IMG/VR virus record: IMGVR_UViG_3300046804_001245
Location: 42,883 to 106,882 of that record
Source: a virus
Length of the DNA: 64,000 bases
Reading direction: 5' to 3' (one strand)
The position numbers and the translations under genes are program-made. The notes under the pieces are model-generated. The model did no database searches. It saw only the letters and a program-made list of their open reading frames with translations, and was not told the DNA's origin. This document shows positions 14,392 through 26,159 of this stretch, in pieces (the first letter of the stretch is position 1; each line of letters starts with the position of its first letter).

Positions 14392-14413
14392 AGTATATCA
14401 TAAAGGGCTGACT
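14392..14413 (-). promoter_or_regulatory. TGTCRG-type promoter, weak copy (AGTCAG-N10-TATACT)
   Basis: Keeps the invariant ten-base spacing but has one mismatch in the upstream box. The upstream box overlaps the hairpin at 14403-14426. Confidence 0.45.
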
Positions 14414-14426
14414 TGCGCCAGCCCTT
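14403..14426 (-). terminator. Hairpin after the Lsr2-like gene
   Basis: Eight-base perfect stem AAGGGCTG/CAGCCCTT with an eight-base loop, between two - strand genes. There is no strong U-tract, so termination is likely but unproven. Confidence 0.5.
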
Positions 14427-14441
14427 GTCTGATCTATTTAT

Positions 14442-14588
14442 TTAGTTCTTTGCTTGCTTGGTCTCAGCAGAAAACTTTACGCCATTCTTTTCCGCCTCTG
14501 ACAGGGCCTGCTTAGCTGCAGCTGAGAAACGGCCACGGCGGCCAACAGTAATTCCCTTGCTTGCTAGATATTCACGCTTTGTTGTCAT
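14442..14588 (-). CDS. Mini Lsr2-like DNA-binding protein
   Basis: Forty-eight residues. The order of features (REYLASKG, then GRRGRFSAAAKQA, then a second helix) matches the C-terminal DNA-binding domain of the actinobacterial xenogeneic silencer Lsr2, whose RGR turn inserts into the AT-rich minor groove. The Lsr2 dimerisation domain is absent. It could compete with host Lsr2 and relieve silencing of AT-rich phage DNA. Codons are richer in G/C than the neighbours, compatible with host origin. A GAAAGGA ribosome site precedes the ATG. Confidence 0.65.
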   Translation of the reverse strand: MTTKREYLASKGITVGRRGRFSAAAKQALSEAEKNGVKFSAETKQAKN

Positions 14589-14654
14589 TTTGTCTATCCT
14601 TTCATGATAGGTATATATTTTATCAGGTATCCACGAATTTGTAAATACCCCCGT

Positions 14655-14671
14655 AAAAGGGCCTTTGGCCC
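14655..14671 (-). terminator. Rho-independent terminator (- strand)
   Basis: GGGCC-AAA-GGCCC stem followed by TTTT on the - strand, closing the operon that ends at 14686. Confidence 0.75.
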
Positions 14672-14685
14672 CGCATTCTCGCAGC

Positions 14686-14943
14686 CTAGTCGGATATGTC
14701 CGATTTGTCCACTACGATAATATCATTAGACATGGATGGATATCCATCTTCTAACAAATCTGTTGTATCTCCTTCAAGCTCGTTATCTACATAATGAACC
14801 TGAATTGTAGAATCAGTTTCTATTTGGATCCAAGAATGTGTTGCGGCATTGGAGGCAATATCCCATGCCTCCTCCGCATTTGCCGCTTCCACATCAATAT
14901 AGTATTCAATTAGTTTATCTCCGAAGACTCTATGCTTGCTCAT
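14686..14943 (-). CDS. 85-aa acidic protein
   Basis: An alpha/beta start (FGDKLIEYYIDVEAANAEEAWDIA) in which a strand is followed by an EEAW helix, then an acidic tail. This pattern recurs in small actinophage proteins of unknown function. Overlaps the upstream gene by 14 bases. Confidence 0.6.
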   Translation of the reverse strand: MSKHRVFGDKLIEYYIDVEAANAEEAWDIASNAATHSWIQIETDSTIQVHYVDNELEGDTTDLLEDGYPSMSNDIIVVDKSDISD

Positions 14944-15331
14944 TTAGCCACCCGTCCTCATCCAGGGATACAAGGAAGTCGTTATCCCTCATCCAATCTC
15001 TGATTACCTCTTCCAGGATTTCGCCGCCGTGGTCCATATTAATACCAAGACCGTCGACATCATCCCAGAACTTATCCCAGATTTGTTTAAGAGTTACGCC
15101 AGTTGGCACAGCCTCGTCAACATAGTCATTAACAGCAAGGTCTTCATACTTACAATTGTCGTAGATGTCCTTGATTATATCAAATGTCCATGCCCACAAC
15201 AATGAGGGAAATGCGGCAACATCAGACAATAATCTGTTAATCTCCAGCATTTGATTGTATACGTCGTCCCTACGTGTTTGGTCCTGTAGATCTAATTGTG
15301 CTTTATGCACATCTAATGATTCAATTTGCAT
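14930..15331 (-). CDS. 133-aa acidic helical protein
   Basis: The start at 15331 is preferred because GAAAGGA lies just upstream; the frame extends further to 15355. Acidic, Trp-containing and helical, no motif known. Member of the operon driven from the promoter at 16922. Confidence 0.6.
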   Translation of the reverse strand: MQIESLDVHKAQLDLQDQTRRDDVYNQMLEINRLLSDVAAFPSLLWAWTFDIIKDIYDNCKYEDLAVNDYVDEAVPTGVTLKQIWDKFWDDVDGLGINMDHGGEILEEVIRDWMRDNDFLVSLDEDGWLNEQA

Positions 15332-15599
15332 TCTTGGTCCTTTCGTTAATTGCAAATGCTAATGCATATGTCATTTGGTAAATATGTGTGAGAGCGTCCA
15401 TTTGGCCCTCCCAGTATTTCCGCTCCATAGATTCCATGGCGTCGGAATAATCATTCTCTTCCTCAATACGCTGTGCTTCCTCCAGTTCACGCTCTGCGTC
15501 TAGCATGAGGACCTTTAGGTGCCCGTGCAAGATATCGGTGCCAGAAGACCCAGCGTCGACCTGCTTCTGCAGATATGGGTCCAGTTCTAATGTGTTCAT
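15321..15599 (-). CDS. 92-aa coiled-coil protein
   Basis: A long Glu-rich amphipathic helix in the centre (residues about 30-75), with a polar N-terminus. It overlaps the downstream start by 11 bases and the upstream stop by four. No function recognised. Confidence 0.6.
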   Translation of the reverse strand: MNTLELDPYLQKQVDAGSSGTDILHGHLKVLMLDAERELEEAQRIEEENDYSDAMESMERKYWEGQMDALTHIYQMTYALAFAINERTKNAN

Positions 15600-15814
15600 A
15601 GTATTTCCTCCACGTATTCAAGGATGTGAATTGTAGCAGAAACTTGGCCGCTTGTATAGTTATACTCAAAGTCTAATTCAGCATAATCTTTTGAGGCGGG
15701 GTCCAAGGAATCCATACGAGTAGACAACTGAGACAAATCCTCATTCAAAGATTGTATATGTAATTGAAGATAAGTAACTAATTGGGTCTTCCTATTTATA
15801 TATTCAGTTTCCAT
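15596..15814 (-). CDS. 72-aa coiled-coil protein
   Basis: Two heptad-like helices separated by a polar loop (DPASKDY). Ribosome site GGAGAG. Overlaps both neighbours. Unknown. Confidence 0.6.
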   Translation of the reverse strand: METEYINRKTQLVTYLQLHIQSLNEDLSQLSTRMDSLDPASKDYAELDFEYNYTSGQVSATIHILEYVEEIL

Positions 15815-15899
15815 TTCTCTCCTCTATACATTTAAAACAAATCTCTTTGTTGTTTACCGATACGGTAATTACTTTATAGTCATAACAGATATTACACAT
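15804..15899 (-). CDS. 31-aa zinc-finger microprotein
   Basis: CNIC and CFKC knuckles separated by 16 residues make a minimal zinc ribbon. The start overlaps the end of the upstream gene by eight bases, and its stop lies inside the next start region. Tight coupling supports it. Confidence 0.5.
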   Translation of the reverse strand: MCNICYDYKVITVSVNNKEICFKCIEERNGN

Positions 15900-16116
15900 T
15901 GAAGTAGAATTCATCTCCCTCATTTAAATTATAAAACTCATTGAATTTATTCTTCAGCAAAGGGTCATCATACAATTGGATTAATTTCCAATCTGCATAC
16001 ATGGTTCCCTCATCTAAATTGGACTGATTAAATTGGTCAAACAGTTCCATTGCTACAGCATGAATAATTTCACCTGTATCTGCTTCAGTCATATCGTCAA
16101 ATACCGAGTGTTGCAT
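15892..16116 (-). CDS. 74-aa acidic protein
   Basis: Helical, acidic and rich in Asn/Phe/Tyr. The ATG is directly abutted by the stop of the 257-aa gene upstream. No motif known. Confidence 0.6.
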   Translation of the reverse strand: MQHSVFDDMTEADTGEIIHAVAMELFDQFNQSNLDEGTMYADWKLIQLYDDPLLKNKFNEFYNLNEGDEFYFNV

Positions 16117-16889
16117 TATGCTTTCTCCATTCTATATTCAGGTACGTGGTCGGAATCCAAGTATACTTTATGGGTCTGACATTCTTTGACATTATCTAGG
16201 TCTGCCTCCCCAAGCCAATTACAAGCAGAGCAGATTTCTCCACAATCATTATCGCAATATTCCATTGTATTATCTGAATCACAATCACGACATTTGTTCT
16301 CATACTCTGAGATAGATATAACTTCTCCACGAAGTAATTCCATTTCTCCGCCCCAACCTGTTTCTTCCTCATAAGATAGAGTTAGCAATAAACTAGGATA
16401 TTGTGCAGATAATTTTTGGAGGGCAGGAACAGGAGGAGACCAAGCAGTATTAAAGTTATAATAAACTACTAAGTTCTCTCCATTTTCAGTAGGCCCTTCC
16501 ATATATGTATCTGAATATTCTTTATTATCAGATATAGCCACATCCCATTTTGTTCCCCAATTAGTTATATTCCATGAATACCAAGACTTATCTTCTAATC
16601 TAAGTTTTTCAGTATCATTCCACCAATTAGGGTCAGATACATCTAATTCAGAACGAGTTGGTTGTGCAACATATTCTAAATCAGTTATACCTGCTTGGCG
16701 GTGGTTATAGATATTATAAAAAGCAAAGACAGGATTAGGATATGTAGTCTGAGATACTTCCATATTTCCAGTAGTTTTATTCCATGAATCATGTAACATG
16801 ACGAATGGTTTATTCATTTGTTTTACAAGGTCATTTACCAATTCAGGAGAACCTTCAATTGTAAGACCGTTATAGCACCAATTTGGCAT
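16116..16889 (-). CDS. Api92/DUF1281-like ferredoxin-fold protein
   Basis: Two hundred and fifty-seven residues. The opening MPNWCYN, the central NWGTKWD, the F-x-T-A-W-S-P-P segment and the later YEEETGWGG are the signature order of the Api92-like family found on phages and plasmids, whose role is unknown. A C-terminal extension carries a Cys cluster (CRDCDSDN, CDNDCGEICSAC) that looks like a zinc-binding module. The start at 16889 is chosen from the AAAGGAA site and the family N-terminus. First gene of the operon behind the promoter at 16922. Confidence 0.75.
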   Translation of the reverse strand: MPNWCYNGLTIEGSPELVNDLVKQMNKPFVMLHDSWNKTTGNMEVSQTTYPNPVFAFYNIYNHRQAGITDLEYVAQPTRSELDVSDPNWWNDTEKLRLEDKSWYSWNITNWGTKWDVAISDNKEYSDTYMEGPTENGENLVVYYNFNTAWSPPVPALQKLSAQYPSLLLTLSYEEETGWGGEMELLRGEVISISEYENKCRDCDSDNTMEYCDNDCGEICSACNWLGEADLDNVKECQTHKVYLDSDHVPEYRMEKA

Positions 16890-16921
16890 TATATATTCCT
16901 TTCGTTCGGTTGAATGGTCCA

Positions 16922-16943
16922 ATTATACAATGCCCCACCGACA
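16922..16943 (-). promoter_or_regulatory. TGTCRG promoter (TGTCGG-N10-TATAAT)
   Basis: Exact copy of the repeated signature. Predicted start about 16915, 26 bases before the ATG at 16889. Confidence 0.75.
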
Positions 16944-17028
16944 TTTGACAATATCCCCCAAGTTTCGGGAAATTACATTAGATCTCGTAACAGAGCTATA
17001 TGGTCCTCAGGCATGCGGGCAAAAGCAA

Positions 17029-17053
17029 ATCCCCCAGGAACCAACTGGGGGAT
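17029..17053 (-). terminator. Strong hairpin after the 17173 gene
   Basis: Nine-base perfect stem ATCCCCCAG/CTGGGGGAT with a seven-base loop, between two - strand operons. Confidence 0.65.
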
Positions 17054-17061
17054 ATTGACAC

Positions 17062-17144
17062 GTAGGGCTGCTAGTCAAACGAAAGGAATTAAGTAAACAC
17101 TGCTTTACTTAGCGACTTGGGGAATCCCTATAGCCGCACCCTAC
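17062..17144. other. Structured non-coding element
   Basis: An 83-base stretch closed by GTAGGG/CCCTAC, containing an eight-base hairpin TAAGTAAA-CACTGC-TTTACTTA and a small GGG/CCC hairpin. It lies in the 283-bp gene-free gap between 16890 and 17172. It is not a tRNA: there is no seven-base anticodon loop and no T-arm. It may be a small RNA or a processed 3' UTR. Confidence 0.35.
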
Positions 17145-17172
17145 ATTTAAATGGGCCTAAGCCGTAGATTAA

Positions 17173-17577
17173 TTATACCAGAAGAGGGACGTCGGTATAT
17201 TTCTCTACGAATGTGCGTAGGTCCATTACGAAGAGGGGCTCATTGCTCATACCACGAACCTTGTTGTCCAAGTTATAGAATGAATCCTCTGTATGAAGAC
17301 TAAAAGTCATTTGTGTAAAGTCGACGATAGCAATCTTGTGCTCGTTATCGCCAATCTCATTTACATGCAGGCCCCATCCAGTCTCCATAGACCAACCGTC
17401 GCCAATCATATGACTGATTGCGATACGTGTTGCATATGAAGGGTCCGACCAACGAGGCTGTGCTTTTGCAACCGCCTCTGCTAAATTGGCAAGCATGTTG
17501 TGGCCCGCCCAGTGTCCATACAGTACAATTGTGTTACCGTTCGGCTGTACAAATCCGAAGTTTGCTCTGTCACCCAT
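17173..17577 (-). CDS. Conserved actinophage protein (MGDRANFGF family), unknown function
   Basis: One hundred and thirty-four residues. Motifs MGDRANFGF, LYGHWAGH, AISHMIGD, ETGWGL and GDNEHK are those of a protein often found in actinophage and actinobacterial genomes. The His/Asp/Trp conservation suggests an enzyme or a ligand-binding fold, but none is established. Overlaps the upstream gene by eight bases. Confidence 0.7.
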   Translation of the reverse strand: MGDRANFGFVQPNGNTIVLYGHWAGHNMLANLAEAVAKAQPRWSDPSYATRIAISHMIGDGWSMETGWGLHVNEIGDNEHKIAIVDFTQMTFSLHTEDSFYNLDNKVRGMSNEPLFVMDLRTFVEKYTDVPLLV

Positions 17578-17770
17578 TTATTTCTTCCTTTTCTATTATT
17601 GGTGTTTCTTCTTTACGGTCTAATTCTATAATTTCATAGGCCCACTTGTCAAGGGTCTCTGAATATTTATTTCGGTGGTGGCCACAGAAATACAATTCGC
17701 CATTAGTTCCTCTAGATAGGAATAAGGCTTGAGCTGAGCATGAATCGCATTTAATCCACTCAGAGGTCAT
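17570..17770 (-). CDS. 66-aa zinc-ribbon protein
   Basis: CDSCSAQA and FCGHHRNKY give a C-x2-C ... C-x-H-H site, followed by an acidic tail. This small finger is recurrent in actinophages. Confidence 0.65.
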   Translation of the reverse strand: MTSEWIKCDSCSAQALFLSRGTNGELYFCGHHRNKYSETLDKWAYEIIELDRKEETPIIEKEEING

Positions 17771-17924
17771 TGTTTAATGTACCAAATTCGATTTTGTCTG
17801 CTATATCGTCCATGATTTGGCCTTCCTCGCCTAAAATAGCATCGGCTGCCCATTGACGAATATTGTTAATAATTACTTCACGAGTAAATTTAACACCATC
17901 TTCAAAACCATCTTTGTAGTCCAT
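17760..17924 (-). CDS. 54-aa acidic helical protein
   Basis: Starts MDYKDGFEDG, a DG-rich start common in actinophage unknown proteins, followed by one long helix. Overlaps the downstream gene by 11 bases and is one base from the upstream gene. Confidence 0.55.
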   Translation of the reverse strand: MDYKDGFEDGVKFTREVIINNIRQWAADAILGEEGQIMDDIADKIEFGTLNNDL

Positions 17925-17925
17925 G

Positions 17926-18135
17926 TTACCTCCTGTAGCCTGTTGGCTGGTAATCTGTCTCCACTAGTATATCCAATTTATACTTAGATATCAAGGCTGA
18001 AACTTTTTCAATATTTCCCGTCCCAATATCAAATACAGTTGAATCTATCCAATATGGATCTAATCCAGCGAATTCAGCGTCCCAATATGCCGCTTTGAGG
18101 GCGGCAGTATTAGGAGCACGTAGTTGATAATACAT
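17926..18135 (-). CDS. 69-aa alpha/beta protein
   Basis: Compact, with a possible beta-alpha-beta pattern. The start shares one base with the stop of the 184-aa gene. An AGGAG-type site is present. No known family. Confidence 0.55.
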   Translation of the reverse strand: MYYQLRAPNTAALKAAYWDAEFAGLDPYWIDSTVFDIGTGNIEKVSALISKYKLDILVETDYQPTGYRR

Positions 18136-18689
18136 TAGTTCCAGTCCTGACTATCAACTAAATCAATATCCCATGAATCTACTTCGGTAGTAAAATCATT
18201 TGAGTCGACTGAAAGATTGTCAGAGAGATGATAACGAATATCAAAGTCATTAACTTCGGTAATATCTACCTCAGTACTTCCTGATACTGTAAGAGTTACA
18301 GTCCAGTTCATTGTTTGTTTTGGCTCATGGTCAAGGATTACACAAAGGTCACGAAGAACCTCTTCCTTGTCGACTGTATCTGAGAACCAACTATCAATAG
18401 TTAAATTATCGATAATCTGACCGATTTGTTTTTCTTGTGATTCAAGACGGGCATCACGATATTGTGCTTTTCTAAACATCTCGCTGATGTCTGCACGATT
18501 TAGAGTCCATTCTCTAAGTTCGCCATTTGGCAAGTGTTCATATGCTTTGATTGTTGGATTAGCGAAGAGCAAATCCTCCAATTCAGTTGCTTTATATAGT
18601 TTATAGATACTGTCATTTGATTCTGGCTGAATTTCACGAACAGTAGTTAATGCATGAGGATTATATGAATCCTGCGATACTATTTCCAT
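18135..18689 (-). CDS. 184-aa acidic protein
   Basis: The start at 18689 is chosen from the GAAAGGAAA site and the promoter at 18717. A longer frame to 18908 would run through the tRNA gene and is rejected. The N-terminal half is helical, and the C-terminal half is beta-rich and Asp-rich (repeats of SxDxND/DSWDID). First gene of an operon that continues to 17173. Confidence 0.65.
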   Translation of the reverse strand: MEIVSQDSYNPHALTTVREIQPESNDSIYKLYKATELEDLLFANPTIKAYEHLPNGELREWTLNRADISEMFRKAQYRDARLESQEKQIGQIIDNLTIDSWFSDTVDKEEVLRDLCVILDHEPKQTMNWTVTLTVSGSTEVDITEVNDFDIRYHLSDNLSVDSNDFTTEVDSWDIDLVDSQDWN

Positions 18690-18716
18690 TTGTTTCCTTT
18701 CGTTGTTATTGACCGT

Positions 18717-18738
18717 ATTATAGCGGACCTGACTGACA
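18717..18738 (-). promoter_or_regulatory. TGTCRG promoter (TGTCAG-N10-TATAAT)
   Basis: Exact copy. Predicted start about 18710, 21 bases before the ATG at 18689. No CRP-like site upstream of this copy. Confidence 0.75.
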
Positions 18739-18799
18739 AAATCCAGGGGTCCCGCCCCTTTGTCGTAACAATCTTTTTTGGATTTCACGTATGCGGGCG
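18738..18799. repeat. Dispersed intergenic repeat, copy A (divergent)
   Basis: Shares AATCCAGGGGT, a GTAAC core and a distal GCGGGC with the copies at 20036, 21406 and 23534, in the same order and strand. It lies directly downstream of the tRNA. Confidence 0.5.
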
Positions 18800-18804
18800 A
18801 GCTG

Positions 18805-18879
18805 CGACCCATACCAGATTTGAACTGGTGATCTCCACCGTGACAAGGTGGCGCTTTAACCATGCTAAGCCAATGGGCC
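18805..18879 (-). tRNA. tRNA-Asp (anticodon GTC)
   Basis: Seventy-five bases on the - strand. Acceptor GGCCCAT/ATGGGTC (one G-U), D-stem GCTT/AAGC, anticodon stem CCACC/GGTGG with loop TTGTCAC (anticodon GTC), T-stem ACCAG/CTGGT with loop TTCAAAT, discriminator G, no encoded CCA. It is the only tRNA I could find in the window. Aspartate codons are common in the very acidic proteins of this phage. Confidence 0.92.
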
Positions 18880-18885
18880 AATAGG

Positions 18886-18903
18886 GGGCCCCTTGCGGGG
18901 CCC
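18886..18903 (-). terminator. GC-rich hairpin between DUF932 gene and tRNA
   Basis: Seven-base stem GGGCCCC/GGGGCCC with a TTGC loop just after the DUF932 stop codon. There is no U-tract, so it may be a processing or attenuating hairpin rather than a full terminator. Confidence 0.55.
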
Positions 18904-18911
18904 GTCATTCT

Positions 18912-19922
18912 TTAGAATGATTTTACAACCTGAAGAATTTTATTCTTCTCGGCGGTAATAATTGGGTCAAAACCAGAAGCAGAAGCCCACTTTGATTCTG
19001 AATTACTCTTGCGAGTAGGACGGAAATAATCAAGGCGTTCAGTAAGCGCATTGAAAGCGCCCCATTTTGTTCCCTTGATATTAGCATTGGTCGGAGAGTT
19101 ATGGTAAAGGTCATTTAGCAAAACAACCTTGTTATCCCATTTTGTCTTAGCCAATTTAGAATCAGATTCGGCAGGCTTAGGATAAATTGTTTTTACAATA
19201 TCCTGAAATTGCTTATCTGTAATTTCAGCAGCGAATAGAGATTGAGCCTCTTTTTCAAAAGCGTCGAAATAGCCAAGAGTAAGACCAAGAGTCTCACGAG
19301 CAATTTGAATCTTACCTTCCGCCGTTTGAGTGTGGCGAATCTTGAAAGATTGCTTTGATTGCTTCATCGCTAGGTTTAGCGTATTTTGGCATACGACACG
19401 AACAGGTGTAATCGCTGCCTGAACAGCAACAGAGCCGTCGTGTGATGTCCATACGATAAGATAAAGTTTAGTTTTATCGTTAGCACCTTTAGGGTCTAGC
19501 ACCATTTCACGGGGAACAGTAAGAGAACCGAATACAACTTTGCCATTCTTTAGAGAACCAGCAGATTCCCAAGCGCAGCGAGAATCGCCGTCTAGGATAT
19601 TGTCAGCGAATGAAAATAGTTCTTCATTCTGAACAACTTTATATCTAGCACCGACAGTTGAGAGAACATCTGTTCCGCCATTGAATGGGTTAGTTCTAGT
19701 CACGAGTTGTGAATTAGAAGAATCATTCCAAGATTCTGGAATGAAATCAGATACAGGTGAAAGCGAAACATTCCAATTAGAAAGTTTAGCCTCATCTAAC
19801 ATCATTTGAGTTGAAACAGATTCATCTTGTGCGAAGATTCTGTTTGCGAGATTGTGCCAAGCGGGAGTTCCACGCAAGGCGAAAGCGACTTCGTCGCCAT
19901 TTATTTCTAGGTTATGAGCCAT
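18912..19922 (-). CDS. DUF932 / phage-plasmid-like protein (TIGR03299 type)
   Basis: Three hundred and thirty-six residues. The overall pattern (GTPAWHNL near the N-terminus, a central VRVVCQNTLNLA motif, then a long helical C-terminal half) is that of the DUF932 family found on phages, plasmids and integrative elements. The biochemical role is unknown; association with DNA replication or anti-restriction has been proposed for such proteins. Longest gene of the - strand block, alone behind the promoter at 19957. Confidence 0.85.
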   Translation of the reverse strand: MAHNLEINGDEVAFALRGTPAWHNLANRIFAQDESVSTQMMLDEAKLSNWNVSLSPVSDFIPESWNDSSNSQLVTRTNPFNGGTDVLSTVGARYKVVQNEELFSFADNILDGDSRCAWESAGSLKNGKVVFGSLTVPREMVLDPKGANDKTKLYLIVWTSHDGSVAVQAAITPVRVVCQNTLNLAMKQSKQSFKIRHTQTAEGKIQIARETLGLTLGYFDAFEKEAQSLFAAEITDKQFQDIVKTIYPKPAESDSKLAKTKWDNKVVLLNDLYHNSPTNANIKGTKWGAFNALTERLDYFRPTRKSNSESKWASASGFDPIITAEKNKILQVVKSF

Positions 19923-19956
19923 AGATTTATCCTTTCGATAGTTGATTAGTTCCTGA

Positions 19957-19978
19957 ATTATACACTACGCTGCCGACA
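19957..19978 (-). promoter_or_regulatory. TGTCRG promoter (TGTCGG-N10-TATAAT) of DUF932 gene
   Basis: Exact copy. Predicted start about 19950. A CRP/GlxR-like palindrome is centred near -77.5. Confidence 0.8.
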
Positions 19979-20019: not shown

Positions 20020-20035
20020 TGTGAGAAAGCTCACA
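20020..20035. promoter_or_regulatory. CRP/GlxR-type operator TGTGA-GAAAGC-TCACA
   Basis: Perfect match to the CRP/GlxR consensus TGTGA-N6-TCACA, 77 bp upstream of the predicted DUF932 start, with TCGGACA beside it. Confidence 0.7.
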
Positions 20036-20096: not shown

Positions 20097-20097
20097 T

Positions 20098-20220
20098 TCA
20101 GCTCATGTACTCGTTGATCACATCCAGCGCATTACACAATTGGCAGAAACATTCGCCATGGTCCATAACATCTTCCCAAATTAATTGCTGCAATTCGTGC
20201 ACCGCATATGGACCGCTCAT
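20098..20220 (-). CDS. 40-aa Cys-containing protein
   Basis: Helical with CFCQLC near the C-terminus. The start overlaps the GP88-like stop by four bases (ATGA), so the two are co-translated. Confidence 0.5.
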   Translation of the reverse strand: MSGPYAVHELQQLIWEDVMDHGECFCQLCNALDVINEYMS

Positions 20221-20936
20221 TTTTTACTCGCAGAAAATCTTATGTCTGCTTTATTAAATACGCAGAGCCCACACGATACACAGGCTGAACCGTTAGTAGA
20301 TATTAGCGGAATTCGTTTAGCATTTTCAGGACACTTTGCGCCTACTTTGCCAGTTAATTCTTTCATGACAGTTTCTGCCACCGCAAAATTCTTAGCGAGA
20401 TACGCAAGGCGTGTGCCGTGATTAGTACGCAATTCTTTAGCAGTATCTTTATTTTCATCATCCGTCGAATAGTAAAGAGATAGATTAGCAATTCCCTTTA
20501 GAATTACGGCGGCGGAAGCGACACGGGTATAGACCCAAAATTGAACATCAGGGTGTTTCTCAATAACATTCTTCCACGCATAGGCATATGTCTCATTAAA
20601 GAAATCTCCGTCCCAGTGGATACGGAATAATTTATCGGCATTTTTCTTATCACAGTCCGCCTTGAATTCTACAATCATTTCATCTAGAAGAGAGACCATT
20701 GTTTCGATATTGGCATTGCGTATCAATTCCCAATTATGGAGCAGTACGGCTTTAACGCCTTTATACACCTTTTCTAATTTACCAGCATAGCAGACACTTT
20801 CGCAGATACTAGTTGCGCCAGGACATGAATAGGCCTTACCAGCAGGCAGGCCAAAAGTATTAGCAATCGTAGGTGTCTTCCCGTTAGGGCTAACGGCGTT
20901 AGCCACTTTTCGGTCATTAGAGCGTTTCAATTTCAT
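20217..20936 (-). CDS. GP88-like protein with conserved cysteines
   Basis: Two hundred and thirty-nine residues. The N-terminal block KTPTIANTFGLPAGKAYSC, with Cys38, Cys45 and Cys49 (ATSICESVCYAGK), and the C-terminal CVSCGLC cluster are the hallmarks of the phage GP88 (gene product 88) family. The Cys clusters suggest an iron-sulphur or zinc site; the activity is unknown. The start at 20936 is supported by a promoter whose -10 ends seven bases upstream, making the message leaderless; the frame extends to 20978 but that part is inside the promoter. Confidence 0.8.
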   Translation of the reverse strand: MKLKRSNDRKVANAVSPNGKTPTIANTFGLPAGKAYSCPGATSICESVCYAGKLEKVYKGVKAVLLHNWELIRNANIETMVSLLDEMIVEFKADCDKKNADKLFRIHWDGDFFNETYAYAWKNVIEKHPDVQFWVYTRVASAAVILKGIANLSLYYSTDDENKDTAKELRTNHGTRLAYLAKNFAVAETVMKELTGKVGAKCPENAKRIPLISTNGSACVSCGLCVFNKADIRFSASKK

Positions 20937-20943
20937 ATGGGTA

Positions 20944-20965
20944 ATTCTATCACCACATACCGACA
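20944..20965 (-). promoter_or_regulatory. TGTCRG promoter (TGTCGG-N10-TAGAAT), leaderless
   Basis: Invariant ten-base spacing. The -10 ends seven bases before the ATG at 20936. The element lies inside the 3' end of the upstream gene. Confidence 0.65.
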
Positions 20966-21096: not shown

Positions 21097-21121
21097 TTAG
21101 TTTCCCTTTCGTTATGCGGAT

Positions 21122-21143
21122 ATTATAACAGATTAGACTGACA
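21122..21143 (-). promoter_or_regulatory. TGTCRG promoter (TGTCAG-N10-TATAAT)
   Basis: Exact copy. The upstream box overlaps the last codons of the 21133 gene. Drives the gene starting at 21096. Confidence 0.75.
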
Positions 21144-21306
21144 ATTTATCTTCGACACGCCACCTTGCGACATATTTTTCTAGGTCTGCTAGGTTATCAT
21201 CTGTGAGATAGGTGGAGATTACGCCAAAAGAATATGCGTATTCGTTATAGCCTTTTTCTTTTGCGTAGGCTAGGAGGTCATTTAGAATATCGTTTCTGTC
21301 TTTCAT
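21133..21306 (-). CDS. 57-aa helical protein
   Basis: Mostly helical with a charged C-terminus. AAAGGAAA site upstream and its own promoter at 21331. No family recognised. Confidence 0.55.
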   Translation of the reverse strand: MKDRNDILNDLLAYAKEKGYNEYAYSFGVISTYLTDDNLADLEKYVARWRVEDKLSV

Positions 21307-21330
21307 TTATTTTCCTTTCGATATGCCGAC

Positions 21331-21352
21331 ATTATAAACTAAACCGCCGACA
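21331..21352 (-). promoter_or_regulatory. TGTCRG promoter (TGTCGG-N10-TATAAT)
   Basis: Exact copy, predicted start about 21324. An imperfect CRP-like site lies near -73.5. Confidence 0.75.
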
Positions 21353-21389
21353 TTTTCCATTCCAGCTTGGGCGTGTCGCAAATTATTTT

Positions 21390-21405
21390 TGTGGGGAATC
21401 TCACA
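21390..21405. promoter_or_regulatory. CRP/GlxR-type site with one mismatch (TGTGG-N6-TCACA)
   Basis: Differs from the consensus only at the fifth base of the left arm. Same relative position as the perfect sites. Confidence 0.5.
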
Positions 21406-21466
21406 AAATCCAGGGGTATTTTTAAGTTGACGTAACAAGCTCGGCGCCCCCACTCTTTTGCGGGCC
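21406..21466. repeat. Dispersed intergenic repeat, copy C
   Basis: AATCCAGGGGTATTTT, AGTTGACGTAAC, then CGCCCCCACT and TGCGGGCC, in the same order as copy B. Confidence 0.6.
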
Positions 21467-21525
21467 ATTTTGGGAAGATGGGGCGGGGATCTAGATGATT
21501 ACACAGTTCAAACCCGCCCCAAGCT

Positions 21526-21783
21526 TTATGCTAAACCAATTTCTACTTTAGTTAGTTTAGTTGGCTTATATTTAGTTACTGTTTCCATTGGTAGAAACAG
21601 AGCCACAGTTTTTCTTTTCTTTAGTTTATCATAAACAAAAGCACGAACATTTCCAGAAAATTGGTTTAGATTAGAAAAAACTAATTCTGTTAGGTGTTCT
21701 TTATCTACTCCGTCATCTGAGAAAAGAGTCAAATCATTTTGTTTTACGTCATCATATATTTCGATACGATACCGATTACGCAT
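21526..21783 (-). CDS. 85-aa protein
   Basis: Alpha/beta with a basic middle (DKLKKRKTV). No known motif. Its leader (21784-21870) is longer than usual for this block and lacks a clear TGTCRG promoter. Confidence 0.6.
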   Translation of the reverse strand: MRNRYRIEIYDDVKQNDLTLFSDDGVDKEHLTELVFSNLNQFSGNVRAFVYDKLKKRKTVALFLPMETVTKYKPTKLTKVEIGLA

Positions 21784-21873
21784 TTTATTTCTTTCTGTTA
21801 GTAGGGATTTTAGTTGAGCAGTTTAGCCTTGACTTGCTCAGGTCAGGTATCTTTTCCGTTAGGAGAAGTTTAG

Positions 21874-21902
21874 CATGGGGGACTAGATTTTGTCTAGCCC
21901 CC
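21874..21902 (-). terminator. Hairpin after the 21909 gene
   Basis: Interrupted GGGG/CCCC plus CTAGA/TCTAG stem with a CAAAA loop, immediately after the - strand stop codon. Confidence 0.6.
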
Positions 21903-21908
21903 AATTTG

Positions 21909-22331
21909 CTATAAGTATTTAGCGATAGAGTTGTAAGTAGATGTGGAAACTGTTTCCTCATCTGTCATCTTGAGAATACGGATAGCGTTCTCAATTTCCT
22001 CTACCATTTCCTTATATTGCCAATCATGGAAAGACTCAAAGTCTTTCTGCGGTTCAGTAGGAAGCGTGATAGTTCCTGCTGGTAATTCAAAAGAAACATA
22101 GATTTTGCCATTGTATCTGACATTGGCAGACAGTTCATCTGCCTTAGCAATTTTTTCAAGTGCTAACTTAGCAACTTCCTTGTTGTATTTCTCTTGTGCC
22201 TTTGAGAACTTTTCCTCATTGACTTTTTGATTAGCCTTATCCTTTTGGAGTTGAGCCAATTTATTTTCAAGTGCCTTGATTACTTTGGTTGTAGCAATCT
22301 TGACATTTATGGATTTACCATTTCTAGCCAT
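21909..22331 (-). CDS. 140-aa protein with N-terminal coiled coil
   Basis: A Lys-rich coiled coil (residues about 15-68) is followed by a small beta domain (NGKIYVSFELPAG) and a C-terminal helix. Similar proteins occur in actinophages with no assigned role. Own promoter at 22362 and hairpin terminator at 21874, so monocistronic. Confidence 0.65.
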   Translation of the reverse strand: MARNGKSINVKIATTKVIKALENKLAQLQKDKANQKVNEEKFSKAQEKYNKEVAKLALEKIAKADELSANVRYNGKIYVSFELPAGTITLPTEPQKDFESFHDWQYKEMVEEIENAIRILKMTDEETVSTSTYNSIAKYL

Positions 22332-22361
22332 TTTATTTCCTTTCGTTAGTTATGAGCAAGA

Positions 22362-22383
22362 ATTATAGCAGGGGATACTGACA
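22362..22383 (-). promoter_or_regulatory. TGTCRG promoter (TGTCAG-N10-TATAAT)
   Basis: Exact copy, predicted start about 22355, 24 bases before the ATG at 22331. Confidence 0.8.
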
Positions 22384-22404
22384 TTGTATCCCCCACCTAT
22401 TTAG

Positions 22405-22557
22405 TTATTTAGCAGGTGCGCTAGTCCAGCGTTCCTTGCCATTGACATCAAGCAGAATACGATTTACACCTGAAGGGTGATTATCTACTGCTTTGATAAC
22501 GCCTGTCACGCCACTATTAGTGGTTGTGTAGGTCTGTCCGATTTCCAGAGTTGCCAT
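22405..22557 (-). CDS. 50-aa small beta protein
   Basis: Beta-rich with motif TNSGVTGVIKAVDNHPSGVNRI, resembling a small SH3-like barrel common in phage genomes. Own promoter at 22587, with AAAGGAAA upstream of the ATG. Confidence 0.6.
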   Translation of the reverse strand: MATLEIGQTYTTTNSGVTGVIKAVDNHPSGVNRILLDVNGKERWTSAPAK

Positions 22558-22586
22558 TTATTTTCCTTTCGTTGTTGTGGAAGGCT

Positions 22587-22608
22587 ATCCTAGCATAGCC
22601 CACCGACA
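22587..22608 (-). promoter_or_regulatory. TGTCRG promoter (TGTCGG-N10-TAGGAT)
   Basis: Same box and spacing with a weaker -10. Drives 22557. Confidence 0.65.
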
Positions 22609-22610
22609 TT

Positions 22611-22868
22611 TTAGAGCCACGCCTCTAGGTGGTGTTGTTCTACGATAGCCCAAGCGGGTGCGGTATTGAAACCTTTATAAGTTATGCCTTCGGGCATTGG
22701 TATCTCACGATCAGTTTCGCCTTCGTTGTAAGCCTCAATAGCCTCAATACACGGCAATACCATAGATTTAGGAACGGGCGGGTAATGATTAGAAGTTAGG
22801 TGAATACCAATAGCGGTAGATAAGTCTAATTCGCCATTGGCTAATTCTGTTGCGAAGGTGCTACCCAT
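22611..22868 (-). CDS. 85-aa protein
   Basis: A recognisable small actinophage protein pattern (TSNHYPPVP, then an acidic helix, PEGITYKGFNTAPAW, then EQHHLEAWL). Unknown role. Overlaps the upstream gene by eight bases. Confidence 0.6.
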   Translation of the reverse strand: MGSTFATELANGELDLSTAIGIHLTSNHYPPVPKSMVLPCIEAIEAYNEGETDREIPMPEGITYKGFNTAPAWAIVEQHHLEAWL

Positions 22869-23130
22869 TTAGCACCTCGTTTCTCATTGTTTCAATTTCG
22901 TCAATAGTAGCGATTAGGTCTTTTACTTGGCTTTCAGTTAGTAATACTTTAGTAGCCTTATCTACTGCGGTGCTTGCTAGCATAGAAGCATAGACGAACA
23001 AGGCTTTGGCTATTTGTTCATCATCTAATTCTTTGTAAGAGTGTGTAATAAATTGAGCGAAGCCCATAGCCTCGTCATCAAAAATAGTTTCTTCAGTTGC
23101 CTGAATAAGAGCGGTTGCGGTTGCTATCAT
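22861..23130 (-). CDS. 89-aa helical protein
   Basis: Ala/Glu-rich helical protein, probably co-translated with the 85-aa gene downstream. Promoter at 23164. Confidence 0.6.
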   Translation of the reverse strand: MIATATALIQATEETIFDDEAMGFAQFITHSYKELDDEQIAKALFVYASMLASTAVDKATKVLLTESQVKDLIATIDEIETMRNEVLNG

Positions 23131-23163
23131 TTATTTATTTCCTTTTCGTTTAGTGGTGGGTAG

Positions 23164-23185
23164 ATTATACACCTACCCACCGACA
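23164..23185 (-). promoter_or_regulatory. TGTCRG promoter (TGTCGG-N10-TATAAT)
   Basis: Exact copy, predicted start about 23157. Confidence 0.8.
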
Positions 23186-23187
23186 AT

Positions 23188-23439
23188 TTAGGCAAGGGCT
23201 AAAATAGCCTGCGTTGCACCTAGATTTACGGCATCTAATTCTGCCTGTAATTCCTCGGTTGTCATTTTAGTAGGGTCGCCTACTAATTCGGAGATAGCGT
23301 CACGATTAATCATCTCTACCATTTCGGTAGGCATGCGTGAGATTTGTGGATAGAAAGAGCCATTAGTATCTAGTTTAGATACAAAATTAACTCCATTAAC
23401 GGAGAACGGGAACGAAGCCCAGTTATCTGTGTTTAGCAT
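23188..23439 (-). CDS. 83-aa protein
   Basis: Beta strands at the N-terminus (WASFPFSVNGVNFVSKLD), then a helical acidic part. Own promoter at 23469. No family. Confidence 0.6.
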   Translation of the reverse strand: MLNTDNWASFPFSVNGVNFVSKLDTNGSFYPQISRMPTEMVEMINRDAISELVGDPTKMTTEELQAELDAVNLGATQAILALA

Positions 23440-23468
23440 TTTTTCCTTTCGTTTGTTTGATTAGCGCA

Positions 23469-23490
23469 ATTATAGCGTAGGCTACTGACA
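23469..23490 (-). promoter_or_regulatory. TGTCRG promoter (TGTCAG-N10-TATAAT)
   Basis: Exact copy. A perfect CRP-like site is centred near -63.5. Confidence 0.8.
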
Positions 23491-23517
23491 AATTAGTTTT
23501 ATTCTGCCCGCCAGCTT

Positions 23518-23533
23518 TGTGATAAACATCACA
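23518..23533. promoter_or_regulatory. CRP/GlxR-type operator TGTGA-TAAACA-TCACA
   Basis: Perfect consensus match, centred about 63.5 bp before the predicted start of the 23439 gene, close to a class I CRP activator position. Confidence 0.75.
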
Positions 23534-23595
23534 AAAATCCAGGGGTTTTAAACTTGACTCGTAACAGGAGTTTGCCCCACTCTCCTTTGCGGGCG
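23534..23595. repeat. Dispersed intergenic repeat, copy D
   Basis: AATCCAGGGGTTTT, ACTTGACTCGTAAC, then GCCCCACT and TGCGGGCG. The rest of this gap to 23725 holds TTGTTGAA/TTCAACAA (23600-23638) and a GCGCCG/CGGCGC hairpin (about 23680-23720) but no gene. Confidence 0.6.
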
Positions 23596-23725
23596 ATTTG
23601 TTGAAAGTTCAACCAATTTAGTTGATTATTCAACAAAACGTTTTTTATGTTTTGATTTTCTTTTGTAAATTTTTTTAGACGGAATTGGTTGCGCCGCATT
23701 ACTACGGCGCAATTCCAAAACTTTT

Positions 23726-23917
23726 TTAATTCGTGGTAAATTTTGGAACACGATAATTGCTCGCTTCGTAGAATTTATTCGCATCAAATCTAGGATTATC
23801 TTTTGCGAACATCAACGCAAAATCAACAACCATTTTAGAAAAAATAGCGGGGTGAGTTTTATCTGAAACATACCGCAGAATTTCTGCGGTAGCGACATAG
23901 TCTTTACGAGTCATCAC
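23726..23917 (-). CDS. 63-aa helical protein
   Basis: MTRKDYVATAEILR start, seen in several actinophages. Helical and basic, with no known function. Tandem ATGs at 23917 and 23914 overlap the upstream stop. Confidence 0.6.
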   Translation of the reverse strand: MMTRKDYVATAEILRYVSDKTHPAIFSKMVVDFALMFAKDNPRFDANKFYEASNYRVPKFTTN

Positions 23918-24069
23918 GATTTTACTCCGTCACACTCAACAACATCAAAAACATCAAATTTTGCCAAGTCTGAGTCTGGCAATTGAAATAGAATTTTGTT
24001 TAGCGCAAAAACCGCTTGTAAATCGGTTTCTGCTTCGGTAACAAAACTAATCAAGACATTTTTTTTCAT
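23914..24069 (-). CDS. 51-aa protein
   Basis: Beta-alpha-beta-like pattern with acidic end. Overlaps both neighbours at start and stop, so it belongs to a three-gene unit behind the promoter at 24255. Confidence 0.5.
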   Translation of the reverse strand: MKKNVLISFVTEAETDLQAVFALNKILFQLPDSDLAKFDVFDVVECDGVKS

Positions 24070-24224
24070 TAGTCATTCTCCTTATCAAATAGAGAGCCGT
24101 CATAGTGAGATGTTGGATTACAGTCACAAGGCTCAATGTTGTAATCCTCAGCACCGCCATAGAAAAGCCAACCTTTTCCGTAGCAGGTATCGCAGTCAAA
24201 AGCGAGAGTATGAATTGTTTTCAT
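24069..24224 (-). CDS. 51-aa CxxCxGxG zinc protein
   Basis: The motif CDTCYGKGW resembles a DnaJ zinc-centre repeat and is paired with a CDC later on. A close relative is encoded at 25174. Metal-binding is likely; the partner is unknown. Confidence 0.6.
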   Translation of the reverse strand: MKTIHTLAFDCDTCYGKGWLFYGGAEDYNIEPCDCNPTSHYDGSLFDKEND

Positions 24225-24226
24225 TT

Positions 24227-24364
24227 TTAGTTTTCCTTTCGTGTTGTTTCGGTAATTGTAGCATTAGCCACCGACAAAATTGCCGATAGATTAGAATTGC
24301 GTTTTTCTTTTACTTCCGCTAAACGCTGGGCGATAATGAATTCTCTAAATTCTTTTAGATCCAT
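24227..24364 (-). CDS. 45-aa helical protein
   Basis: Charged helix of 30 residues and a Thr-rich tail. The last codons run through the next promoter (24255), as elsewhere in this block. Own promoter at 24397. Confidence 0.5.
   Translation of the reverse strand: MDLKEFREFIIAQRLAEVKEKRNSNLSAILSVANATITETTRKEN
24255..24276 (-). promoter_or_regulatory. TGTCRG promoter (TGTCGG-N10-TACAAT)
   Basis: Same spacing. Drives the 24224-23726 unit. Confidence 0.7.
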
Positions 24365-24396
24365 TTTAGTTTTCCTTTCGTTTTGTTATTGGTTGA

Positions 24397-24418
24397 ATTA
24401 TAGCGTGGGGGTCTGACA
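24397..24418 (-). promoter_or_regulatory. TGTCRG promoter (TGTCAG-N10-TATAAT)
   Basis: Exact copy. Drives 24364. Confidence 0.8.
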
Positions 24419-24424
24419 TTTTCC

Positions 24425-24604
24425 CTAGTTAGGGAGAATGTCTGGACCATAATAAGCAACGGCGGAAACGATGTTCATCATTCCCTTATATTCATTACAG
24501 GATACGCATACGCTATTCCAGCGGTCATAAGTTTTTGAGCAGAATACGCAGATGTTATCCTGAAGGCTAAAGCCTAGATTTTCAATTTCTCTAAGTGTAG
24601 TCAT
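24425..24604 (-). CDS. 59-aa zinc-ribbon protein
   Basis: CVFC and CVSC knuckles 15 residues apart, with an aromatic YDRW between them, then a helix. Own promoter at 24631. Confidence 0.6.
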   Translation of the reverse strand: MTTLREIENLGFSLQDNICVFCSKTYDRWNSVCVSCNEYKGMMNIVSAVAYYGPDILPN

Positions 24605-24630
24605 TTAGTTTTCCTTTCGTAGTAAATCAG

Positions 24631-24652
24631 ATTATAGCGGAAGCCACCGACA
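24631..24652 (-). promoter_or_regulatory. TGTCRG promoter (TGTCGG-N10-TATAAT)
   Basis: Exact copy. Drives 24604. Confidence 0.8.
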
Positions 24653-24653
24653 T

Positions 24654-24848
24654 TTAGTCGGCAACTTTCACGGCGACAGTCGCCCATTTATTTCCGTTGA
24701 AACGGATAGCGTAGGCTTCATAGCCGTCAAGCCAAATATCCTCACGCTTTTCTGCGAAAGTAATTTCGCCGAATTGGTATTTTCTCGCAATAGAGCGAGG
24801 GTAATAAGTCTGACCTACAAGAAGGTCGGGAATTGAATAAGTTTTCAT
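24654..24848 (-). CDS. 64-aa beta-rich protein
   Basis: Starts MKTYSIPDLLVGQTYYP and is mostly beta strand. No motif known. Own promoter at 24879. Confidence 0.6.
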   Translation of the reverse strand: MKTYSIPDLLVGQTYYPRSIARKYQFGEITFAEKREDIWLDGYEAYAIRFNGNKWATVAVKVAD

Positions 24849-24878
24849 TTAGTTTTCCTTTCATTTTGTTACTCCGTG

Positions 24879-24900
24879 AGTTTATCAAATTGGACTGACA
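24879..24900 (-). promoter_or_regulatory. TGTCRG promoter (TGTCAG-N10-TAAACT)
   Basis: Good upstream box, weaker -10. A perfect CRP-like site lies near -69.5. Confidence 0.65.
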
Positions 24901-24933
24901 TTTTCAAATCGAAAATCGGTATAAATCGGACAT

Positions 24934-24949
24934 TGTGATAATCATCACA
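24934..24949. promoter_or_regulatory. CRP/GlxR-type operator TGTGA-TAATCA-TCACA
   Basis: Perfect consensus match, with TCGGACAT directly beside it. Confidence 0.75.
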
Positions 24950-25042
24950 AAAATAAATTAAAATAAATTTGACTGGTCAAACTTTTTTCGGGCGTGTCGC
25001 AGGATTTCGGGAAATCGGACATAATGGACTTAAAGGATAAAT

Positions 25043-25060
25043 CGCCCGCACAACTGTGCG
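25043..25060 (-). terminator. GC-rich hairpin CCCGCAC-AACT-GTGCGGG
   Basis: Seven-base stem in the gap below the 25094 micropeptide gene. No U-tract follows, so its role as terminator is moderate. The gap 24950-25093 otherwise shows no gene. Confidence 0.5.
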
Positions 25061-25093
25061 GGTTGCCGCAGCTTTTGTCAAGCCGACACGCCG

Positions 25094-25177
25094 TTAGGTT
25101 AGTGTGAGATACGCCACAAGAAACCCTAGCCCTATACAGAGCGACAACAGGGCGGCGGCATGGAGTAGGTGTATCAT
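25094..25177 (-). CDS. 27-aa transmembrane micropeptide
   Basis: A single hydrophobic helix, coupled to the upstream gene by ATGA overlap. An imperfect CRP-like site (TGTGA-N6-CCACA, 25103-25118) lies inside it. Coding is plausible but unproven at this size. Confidence 0.35.
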   Translation of the reverse strand: MIHLLHAAALLSLCIGLGFLVAYLTLT

Positions 25178-25266
25178 TTAGCACACCTCTCACATGGTTC
25201 TATTGTATATTCATGACGATCACCTACATAGATGACCTTTCTACCATAGCACATAGAGCATTTCAT
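25174..25266 (-). CDS. 30-aa zinc-finger microprotein
   Basis: CSMCYGRK and CERC knuckles, similar in layout to the 51-aa protein at 24069. Overlaps the next start by four bases. Confidence 0.5.
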   Translation of the reverse strand: MKCSMCYGRKVIYVGDRHEYTIEPCERCAK

Positions 25267-25267
25267 T

Positions 25268-25435
25268 TTAGACCGCCTCTTCCAATTCTGCCAAAGCCTC
25301 ATCTTCTAATTCTAGCATTTCATCTAGAGAGATTTCAATAGGGTTTATTTCTTCTTCATCATAGTATTCAACCTCATAGCCGTGTTGAATACTTTCATAT
25401 TTGTATGAGTTATCTGTTCTATCAAACGAATACAT
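25268..25435 (-). CDS. 55-aa very acidic protein
   Basis: About one third Glu/Asp, with a helical C-terminus. A small acidic protein of this type could mimic DNA (as anti-restriction proteins do), but no family resemblance supports that. AAAGGAG site upstream. Confidence 0.5.
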   Translation of the reverse strand: MYSFDRTDNSYKYESIQHGYEVEYYDEEEINPIEISLDEMLELEDEALAELEEAV

Positions 25436-25449
25436 TTATTTATTCTCCT

Positions 25450-25593
25450 TTACTTTCTGTTCTTCCAAATCTTATACGCTACCACTGACACGATAGCAAT
25501 TCCAATTCCTAGCCATGATGCGTAGAAATCAAATTGAGCGGTTTCGAAGGCAATTCCCTCAGAGCCTAGTTCTATTAGTAAGTATCTATCCAT
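25450..25593 (-). CDS. 47-aa membrane protein
   Basis: One transmembrane helix (about residues 23-43) near the C-terminus followed by a basic end. First gene of the unit driven from 25629. Confidence 0.5.
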   Translation of the reverse strand: MDRYLLIELGSEGIAFETAQFDFYASWLGIGIAIVSVVAYKIWKNRK

Positions 25594-25628
25594 TTTGTTT
25601 ATCTTCTTTCTCTATCTTGTATGCTGTA

Positions 25629-25650
25629 AGCATATCCTATGCTGCTGACA
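25629..25650 (-). promoter_or_regulatory. TGTCRG promoter (TGTCAG-N10-TATGCT)
   Basis: Same spacing with a degenerate -10. Perfect CRP-like site near -63.5. Confidence 0.65.
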
Positions 25651-25677
25651 ATTTCAGGGGTCAGACCCTATATTTTG

Positions 25678-25693
25678 TGTGAGTTACCTCACA
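25678..25693. promoter_or_regulatory. CRP/GlxR-type operator TGTGA-GTTACC-TCACA
   Basis: Perfect consensus match. It overlaps the stop codon of the 62-aa gene and lies about 63.5 bp before the next start. Confidence 0.75.
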
Positions 25694-25872
25694 CTCTCTA
25701 TAACCTCATAACCTAATTGGTTTAGGTCATAGACCCAATACTCTGTATCACAGCATAGGGCGGTGATAGTGGTATCCTCAATATCGCTAGTGATATTGGA
25801 CAATTCATCGGAGAATTCTCCACACTCATCACAGGTGAAATTCTTTACTGTATATTCATATTTTAGTGACAT
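25684..25872 (-). CDS. 62-aa zinc-binding acidic protein
   Basis: CDECGEF near the start and a later CC pair. Beta-rich and acidic. Own promoter at 25903. Confidence 0.6.
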   Translation of the reverse strand: MSLKYEYTVKNFTCDECGEFSDELSNITSDIEDTTITALCCDTEYWVYDLNQLGYEVIESVR

Positions 25873-25902
25873 ATTCTTATGTCCTTTCTTTCTAATACTG
25901 AT

Positions 25903-25924
25903 AATCTACCAGGTGCCGCCGACA
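25903..25924 (-). promoter_or_regulatory. TGTCRG promoter (TGTCGG-N10-TAGATT)
   Basis: Same box and spacing. CRP-like site near -64.5. Confidence 0.65.
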
Positions 25925-25952
25925 ATTACAAGGGGTCGGACCCTGTGTTGCT

Positions 25953-25968
25953 TGTGAATTATCTCACA
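25953..25968. promoter_or_regulatory. CRP/GlxR-type operator TGTGA-ATTATC-TCACA
   Basis: Perfect consensus match, overlapping the stop codon of the 47-aa gene. Confidence 0.75.
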
Positions 25969-26102
25969 AGATTTAGATTTTCATCGAAGGTGAGAACCTG
26001 TCTAACCTTGTATGTCTTATCTATTGGACAAATCATGTTCCAACCTTCAGGGTCTACATGTCCGCAAGTTGGGCAAATTGGGTGAAATTTTTCGTATGTC
26101 AT
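25959..26102 (-). CDS. 47-aa zinc-ribbon protein
   Basis: CPTCGH and a later CPID site give a small ribbon. Rightmost gene of the - strand block, preceded by AAAGG and the promoter at 26138. Confidence 0.55.
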   Translation of the reverse strand: MTYEKFHPICPTCGHVDPEGWNMICPIDKTYKVRQVLTFDENLNLVR

Positions 26103-26137
26103 TTTCTGACCTACCTTTCTTTTTTTCTAATACTAAA

Positions 26138-26159
26138 ATAATAACAGGGGGGTCTGACA
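26138..26159 (-). promoter_or_regulatory. TGTCRG promoter (TGTCAG-N10-TATTAT)
   Basis: First promoter of the block. CRP-like site near -70.5. Confidence 0.7.

Follow-up and report, generated by a model that had tools for sequence, protein, structure and literature searches.

A TGTCRG box held ten bases from the -10 hexamer in the probable early promoters of uncultured relatives of Streptomyces phages

Introduction

The stoperators of phage L5 are numerous asymmetric sites that carry TGTC and lie in one orientation, without being locked to a -10 at a fixed spacing. In the middle promoters of phage T4, the MotA box (WWWTGCTTtA) and the -10 are 12 +/- 1 bp apart, and about half of these promoters have a TGn (PMC2988021). 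WhiB-like (Wbl) proteins bind region 4 of sigma-A, and their known DNA contacts lie upstream of the -35 (PMC6282962). Here we analyse a signature, TGTCRG-N10-TATAAT, in which a TGTCRG box precedes a -10 hexamer by exactly ten bases, and which recurs in a block of small minus-strand genes marked by a DUF932 gene and a GP88-family gene. The DNA studied is a 64,000-nucleotide stretch, hereafter the window, comprising bases 42,883-106,882 of the 106,882-bp IMG/VR virus record IMGVR_UViG_3300046804_001245. The matching arrays of the Streptomyces phages known as BE and BK use ordinary TTGNNN-17/18-TAGACT promoters with neither TGTCRG nor Crp-type palindromes, and in BE phages there is one promoter per small gene.

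Results

The signature in the window

A sequence-only reading of the window had listed 18 minus-strand copies of the signature, and each was recovered at its position, box and -10 being separated by exactly ten bases. Two additional copies, at 16160 (TGTCAGACCCATAAAGTATACT) and 25469 (TGTCAGTGGTAGCGTATAAGAT), bring the block to 20. The sites (box plus -10, with any -35-like hexamer at spacer 17 or 18) are as follows.

14392-14413, minus strand: AGTCAG-N10-TATACT
16160-16181, minus strand: TGTCAG-N10-TATACT, within the 3' end of gene 16116-16889
16922-16943, minus strand: TGTCGG-N10-TATAAT; -35 TTGTCA, spacer 18
18717-18738, minus strand: TGTCAG-N10-TATAAT
19957-19978, minus strand: TGTCGG-N10-TATAAT, ahead of the DUF932 gene; -35-like TTTACA, spacer 17
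20944-20965, minus strand: TGTCGG-N10-TAGAAT, the GP88 site, ATG 7 nt on (leaderless)
21122-21143, minus strand: TGTCAG-N10-TATAAT
21331-21352, minus strand: TGTCGG-N10-TATAAT
22362-22383, minus strand: TGTCAG-N10-TATAAT, box within the loop of a hairpin (22367-22397)
22587-22608, minus strand: TGTCGG-N10-TAGGAT
23164-23185, minus strand: TGTCGG-N10-TATAAT
23469-23490, minus strand: TGTCAG-N10-TATAAT
24255-24276, minus strand: TGTCGG-N10-TACAAT, within gene 24227-24364
24397-24418, minus strand: TGTCAG-N10-TATAAT
24631-24652, minus strand: TGTCGG-N10-TATAAT
24879-24900, minus strand: TGTCAG-N10-TAAACT; -35 TTGAAA, spacer 17
25469-25490, minus strand: TGTCAG-N10-TAAGAT, within gene 25450-25593
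25629-25650, minus strand: TGTCAG-N10-TATGCT; -35 CTGAAA, spacer 17
25903-25924, minus strand: TGTCGG-N10-TAGATT; -35 TTGTAA, spacer 17
26138-26159, minus strand: TGTCAG-N10-TATTAT; -35 TTGAAA, spacer 17

Ten copies are perfect, as had been counted, and 14 have at most one mismatch in the -10. The motif is far commoner in the block than in second-order Markov shuffles of it, which gave on average 0.005 exact copies and 0.04 with at most one mismatch (maximum 1). Spacer 10 was the sole enriched spacing in the window, where neither strand had an exact TGTCRG-TATAAT pair with a spacer of 4-9 or 11-15; the opposite strand of the whole record held a single match with at most one mismatch. The signature is thereby confirmed as real and is more extensive than first noted.

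A box is present ahead of eighteen of the 33 gene starts, with 24-43 nt between the end of its -10 and the start codon; GP88, at 7 nt, is additional. Box-free gaps of 77-182 bp precede the genes with upstream ends at 21783, 17577, 15814 and 14588. The claim that the motif marks promoters, lies in one orientation and heads most units is supported, and "nearly every transcription unit" proved slightly generous because of these four starts. Inverted repeats enclose some of the boxes or -10s (22367-22397, 23164-23200 and 22587-22620; for example GGTGGGTAG-gtgtataat-CTACCCACC), and at such sites a promoter and a terminator or operator may overlap.

Spacing and strand among relatives

Over distinct exact sites in related IMG/VR contigs, the spacer between box and TATAAT was ten bases at 663 sites, nine at none and eleven at two. 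All 159 loci that were recovered through GP88 or DUF932 contained the box, the gene strand carrying 1829 sites and the opposite strand 6; one-strandedness held in 42 of 42 records with one stray exact site, and control patterns gave no matches. Since so rigid a spacing, kept at hundreds of sites in several lineages of phage, is hard to explain otherwise, it is likely that the box and the -10 are read together. The box followed by a -10 and a GAAAGGA leader matched at least 120 stretches in IMG/VR, and the box with a GGAGG ribosome site had no match in viral contigs, so that box and GAAAGGA leader appear to travel together. Box promoters in one gene block are shared by a large set of low-GC, uncultured actinobacterial viruses.

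Promoter anatomy and start site

The consensus of 325 unique sites reads AAA-TGTCRG-T-GG/CC, with a G preferred two bases 5' of the -10, then TATAAT, and about half of the sites have a TGn. The bases after the hexamer depend on R: among 457 non-redundant sites, a G is followed almost solely by TGG and an A by either TGG or ACC (GGTGG 86, AGTGG 103, AGACC 72). While the spacer bases, flanks and genes vary freely, the box, the spacing and the -10 are constant.

The sequence-only reading had also held that there was no ordinary -35. This is partly right in the window, where six of the sites listed above have a -35-like hexamer, and it does not hold in general, since a TTGACA-like hexamer (at least 4/6) at spacer 17 or 18 was present at 165 of the 457 sites (36%), compared with 5-20 at control spacers, and the divergent lineage G013 combines the box with TTGACA-like hexamers. 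The other 64% of sites lack one. A -35 in so many sites, above controls, means that the box sits just inside the spacer beside the -35, adding to it or replacing it.

The GP88 ATG lies exactly 7 nt past the -10 in 33 of 34 scorable loci, an arrangement seen both in the window (20944-20965) and in relatives (L154-L232). Since this gene is leaderless, its start codon fixes +1 independently of any consensus. Counted from there, the box would span about -29 to -24.

Crp-type palindromes and other upstream elements

Upstream of 716 promoters, 211 exact TGTGA-N6-TCACA palindromes were found, and two control patterns of equal make-up gave none. In the non-redundant set the palindrome centres cluster at ~54, 64, 74 and 84 bp from the inferred start under a -12 convention, that is 42.5, 52.5, 62.5 or 72.5 bp from the -10 (Rayleigh p ~4e-15, period 10.25). 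Promoters with a -35 have such a site more often (64%) than those without (21%). Every exact palindrome in the window falls within the array, and the sites there, given without strand, are the following.

20020-20035: Crp-type palindrome upstream of the 19957 promoter
21390-21405: the same, with 1 mismatch, upstream of the 21331 promoter
23518-23533: Crp-type palindrome upstream of the 23469 promoter
24934-24949: Crp-type palindrome upstream of the 24879 promoter
25678-25693: Crp-type palindrome upstream of the 25629 promoter
25953-25968: Crp-type palindrome upstream of the 25903 promoter
26194-26209: Crp-type palindrome upstream of the 26138 promoter

Neither a Crp DNA-binding domain nor a cNMP domain was found in ten large records, and a phage-encoded Crp was rejected as the binder. 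This absence of a phage Crp points to a host protein, and the simplest reading of the phased palindromes is that a host Crp/GlxR protein would touch the polymerase from one helical face.

Relatives have further upstream elements at preferred positions, namely GGCGTGTCG centred at about -41, its reverse CGACACGCC at -49.5 and TGTCCGAWTT at -55. The GGCGTGTCG/CGACACGCC element includes GACAC, the known WhiA motif. Inverted pairs of DnaA boxes (TTATCCACAGG...CCTGTGGATAA) lie upstream of some box promoters, including those of DUF932 in L233, L238, L249 and L253. Many boxes are also preceded, between units, by an orientation-specific intergenic skeleton, GCCCGCA(A)...TTACG...CCCTGGAA/T, with these examples in the window.

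20110-20040, minus strand: intergenic skeleton
21463-21400, minus strand: intergenic skeleton
23595-23535, minus strand: intergenic skeleton

As an RNA fold the skeleton was weakly structured (mean z -1.2); it is possibly a terminator or another binding platform. In Karimac-type BE phages (Karimac 1-16605), AAGATCTT palindromes lie upstream of several early promoters and are perhaps the counterpart of the Crp-type sites.

The early array and its kinship

The window contains an array of small one-way genes with the following markers.

18912-19922, minus strand: DUF932 protein, array marker, ~50% identical to that of Streptomyces BE phages
20217-20936, minus strand: GP88-family protein, array marker
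18804-18879, minus strand: tRNA-Asp(gtc), inside the array, directly ahead of the 18717 promoter

The block ends at a transglycosylase-glycosyltransferase-ribonucleotide reductase run with the gene order of Streptomyces phage BillNye, and the replication and packaging genes are homologous to those of BE/BK phages at 40-66% identity. On the strength of these markers, the gene order and the shared genes, the virus is a distant relative of the Stanwilliamsviridae. One BE-phage contig has GP88 at each end, meaning that in these phages the array lies in terminal repeats. No repeats were seen at the ends of the window's record, whose assembly may be collapsed; the block is inferred to be the early, probably terminal-repeat, region.

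Divergent lineages

Two lineages with a DUF932 only ~50% identical and a capsid 37% identical, G009 and G040, have 16 and 15 boxes respectively, in which GTTWNR replaces AAA as the flank (GTTWNR-TGTCGGTGG). In G013 the hexamer is near-perfect TTGACA, 18 bp from the -10. Since all three keep the box and its spacing, these form the constant part of the promoter, the other elements being lineage-variable. The array of boxes is absent from the BE, BK and L332 outgroups, and yet in their core genes the Streptomyces BE/BK phages are at least as close to the window. Either an ancestral box was lost in the Streptomyces phages or the box phages are one clade. The DUF932 tree favours the former, with G009 outside, and the concatenated tree cannot separate the two (approximately unbiased test, p 0.61 for loss with G009 outside and 0.39 for one clade).

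Candidate readers of the box

Nine box-bearing records lacked the MotA domain (PF09158), AsiA (PF09010) and sigma region 2 (PF04542). Four early proteins common to box phages and absent from BE/BK phages are candidates.

22405-22557, minus strand: 50-residue SH3/Tudor-like protein, a weak candidate factor; fold search found generic SH3/Tudor barrels only
21909-22331, minus strand: 140-residue coiled-coil protein; fold search found no match
22611-22868, minus strand: 85-residue protein, in all box lineages sampled (G009, G040, G013)
23726-23914: early protein

Two other regulator-like genes are present in the window.

14442-14588, minus strand: DNA-binding domain of Lsr2 type, standing alone (48 residues) and conserved in box phages; the gene itself has a box-free promoter
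4342-4653, plus strand: Wbl regulator

Every box-bearing record above 100 kb that was checked encodes a Wbl. It was rejected as the specific factor since box-less BE/BK phages also have one (43-49% identical in Karimac, Riptide and BK phages). A small 46-residue helix-turn-helix protein with a sub-threshold Sigma70_r4 match was likewise not specific, being 67% identical in box-less BillNye.

Discussion

We propose that the 20 sites are probably the early-array promoters of a Stanwilliamsviridae-related actinophage and are read by the sigma-containing polymerase of the host together with a TGTCRG-binding protein. The promoter is a conserved composite that runs from an upstream activator site (often Crp-type) through a weak or strong -35 or an A-rich stretch to TGTCRG(T/A)(GG/CC), 10 bp, TATAAT, 7 nt and the start. 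The host RNA polymerase with the main sigma factor of the host would read the -10, this factor being proposed since the search for a phage sigma region 2 was negative in the nine records. TGTCRG, just downstream of the -35, would be read by a sequence-specific protein attached to the polymerase, and this attachment would keep the box and the -10 in their fixed register. In the lineage of the window, further activation may come from a Crp/GlxR-type protein of the host that binds on one face of the helix. We are less sure that the box reader would be host-encoded or part of the host polymerase; we lean to the host side because ordinary host promoters drive the matching arrays of the Streptomyces relatives and because transcription of early genes precedes the making of phage proteins, with a phage factor nearly as likely. 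The chances are about even that TGTCRG(T/A)SS, at about -29 and in a 10-bp register, is a new bacterial promoter element read with sigma-A polymerase and combined with a hijacked, phased host Crp-type activator for the whole early array.

Several observations weigh against this proposal. Against a host reader, the box-plus-GAAAGGA pattern was no commoner than chance predicts among 84,980 cellular genomes (16 scattered matches, ~20 expected by estimate), with no Actinomycetota among the 16, in a scan that requires a phage-like ribosome site and would overlook many host promoters; the signature is phage-limited at the sensitivity tested. The host is only implied, by the low GC, the Wbl and the fact that the nearest isolates grow on Streptomyces, and the start sites are placed from the sequence. 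As to the activator, a minority class of palindromes at ~69-70 bp is out of phase, the spacing departs by 2-3 bp from the phase of the textbook E. coli class I positions, and the palindromes are absent from G009 and G040 and are thus dispensable for the box.

It is quite possible, if short of an even chance, that a small phage-made or injected protein binds both TGTCRG and polymerase as MotA does, in which case the array would be delayed-early or middle. The confinement of the signature to phages, the layout resembling a MotA box plus -10, and the small early proteins that are common to box phages and missing from box-less BE/BK phages would all fit such a factor, but the MotA DNA-binding domain and AsiA were not found in the nine records, the shared candidates have no recognisable DNA-binding fold, and the Wbl and the small helix-turn-helix protein also occur in box-less BE/BK phages. 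Moreover, the matching BE array runs on ordinary promoters, suggesting immediate-early use, and some boxes keep a -35. A phage Wbl acting on sigma region 4 could itself set -35-independent promoter use, since Wbl proteins bind that region and accompany the box in every record above 100 kb checked; this we regard as quite improbable, given the similar Wbl of Karimac, Riptide and the BK phages and the known Wbl contacts upstream of the -35, where the box lies downstream.

The box might instead be an operator through which a phage repressor or timing switch silences, rather than activates, the early array, in the manner of the L5 stoperators. The many short intergenic sites in one orientation would suit an operator, as would the overlap of the box with the polymerase footprint and the presence of a -35 at a third of the sites. 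This is nevertheless unlikely, since a repressor needs no base-exact 10-bp spacing such as that kept at 663 sites in divergent lineages, and the two thirds of sites that lack a -35 would be weak unaided. The units also resemble one another in ribosome site and leader, as they would if a functionless box had been kept by descent in a duplicated cassette; that idea, like plain coincidence, can hardly be credited, because the box, spacing and -10 hold while spacer bases, flanks and genes vary, shuffles give practically none, and both the spacing and the leaderless starts contradict it.

No publication naming the TGTCRG-N10-TATAAT motif was found, and the element is real, conserved and apparently undescribed so far. 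It is a mark of hundreds of contigs from an abundant group of uncultured phages, and it could serve in start-site annotation and in recruiting phages from metagenomes. The identity of its reader would reveal either a MotA-like factor of actinophages, for which the searchable papers describe none, or a new promoter element of low-GC Actinobacteria, and the phased Crp-type sites suggest that phage early genes are tied to a metabolic regulator of the host.

Compared with known systems, the box sites are, like the L5 stoperators, many, asymmetric, TGTC-bearing and one-way, but they are locked to a -10. The upstream TGTGA-N6-TCACA sites at ~10-bp steps on one helical face recall Crp/GlxR class I promoters, except that here they lie in early promoters of a phage that has no Crp. 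The Streptomyces BE phages Karimac and Riptide, of the Stanwilliamsviridae, share homologous DUF932 and GP88 genes and an array of numerous small, individually promoted genes, and GP88 is near-leaderless in Karimac, with 6 nt between the -10 and the ATG (7 nt in box phages), whereas their promoters, like those of BK phages, are of the ordinary kind. The T4 parallel drawn in the sequence-only reading is fair as a likeness of layout: in both, a phage element lies 5' of an intact -10, with a TGn in about half of cases, at about -30 and fixed relative to a good -10, and a one-strand family of sites heads many small genes. It does not extend to the proteins, and AAATGTCRG-TGG lies exactly 10 bp from the -10, ~3 bp nearer than the MotA box and with no play in length. 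A -35, usually missing from T4 middle promoters, is lacking at 64% of the box sites and kept at the others. Thus, although they fail the protein tests of the T4 family, the box promoters resemble the T4 middle promoters in their layout.

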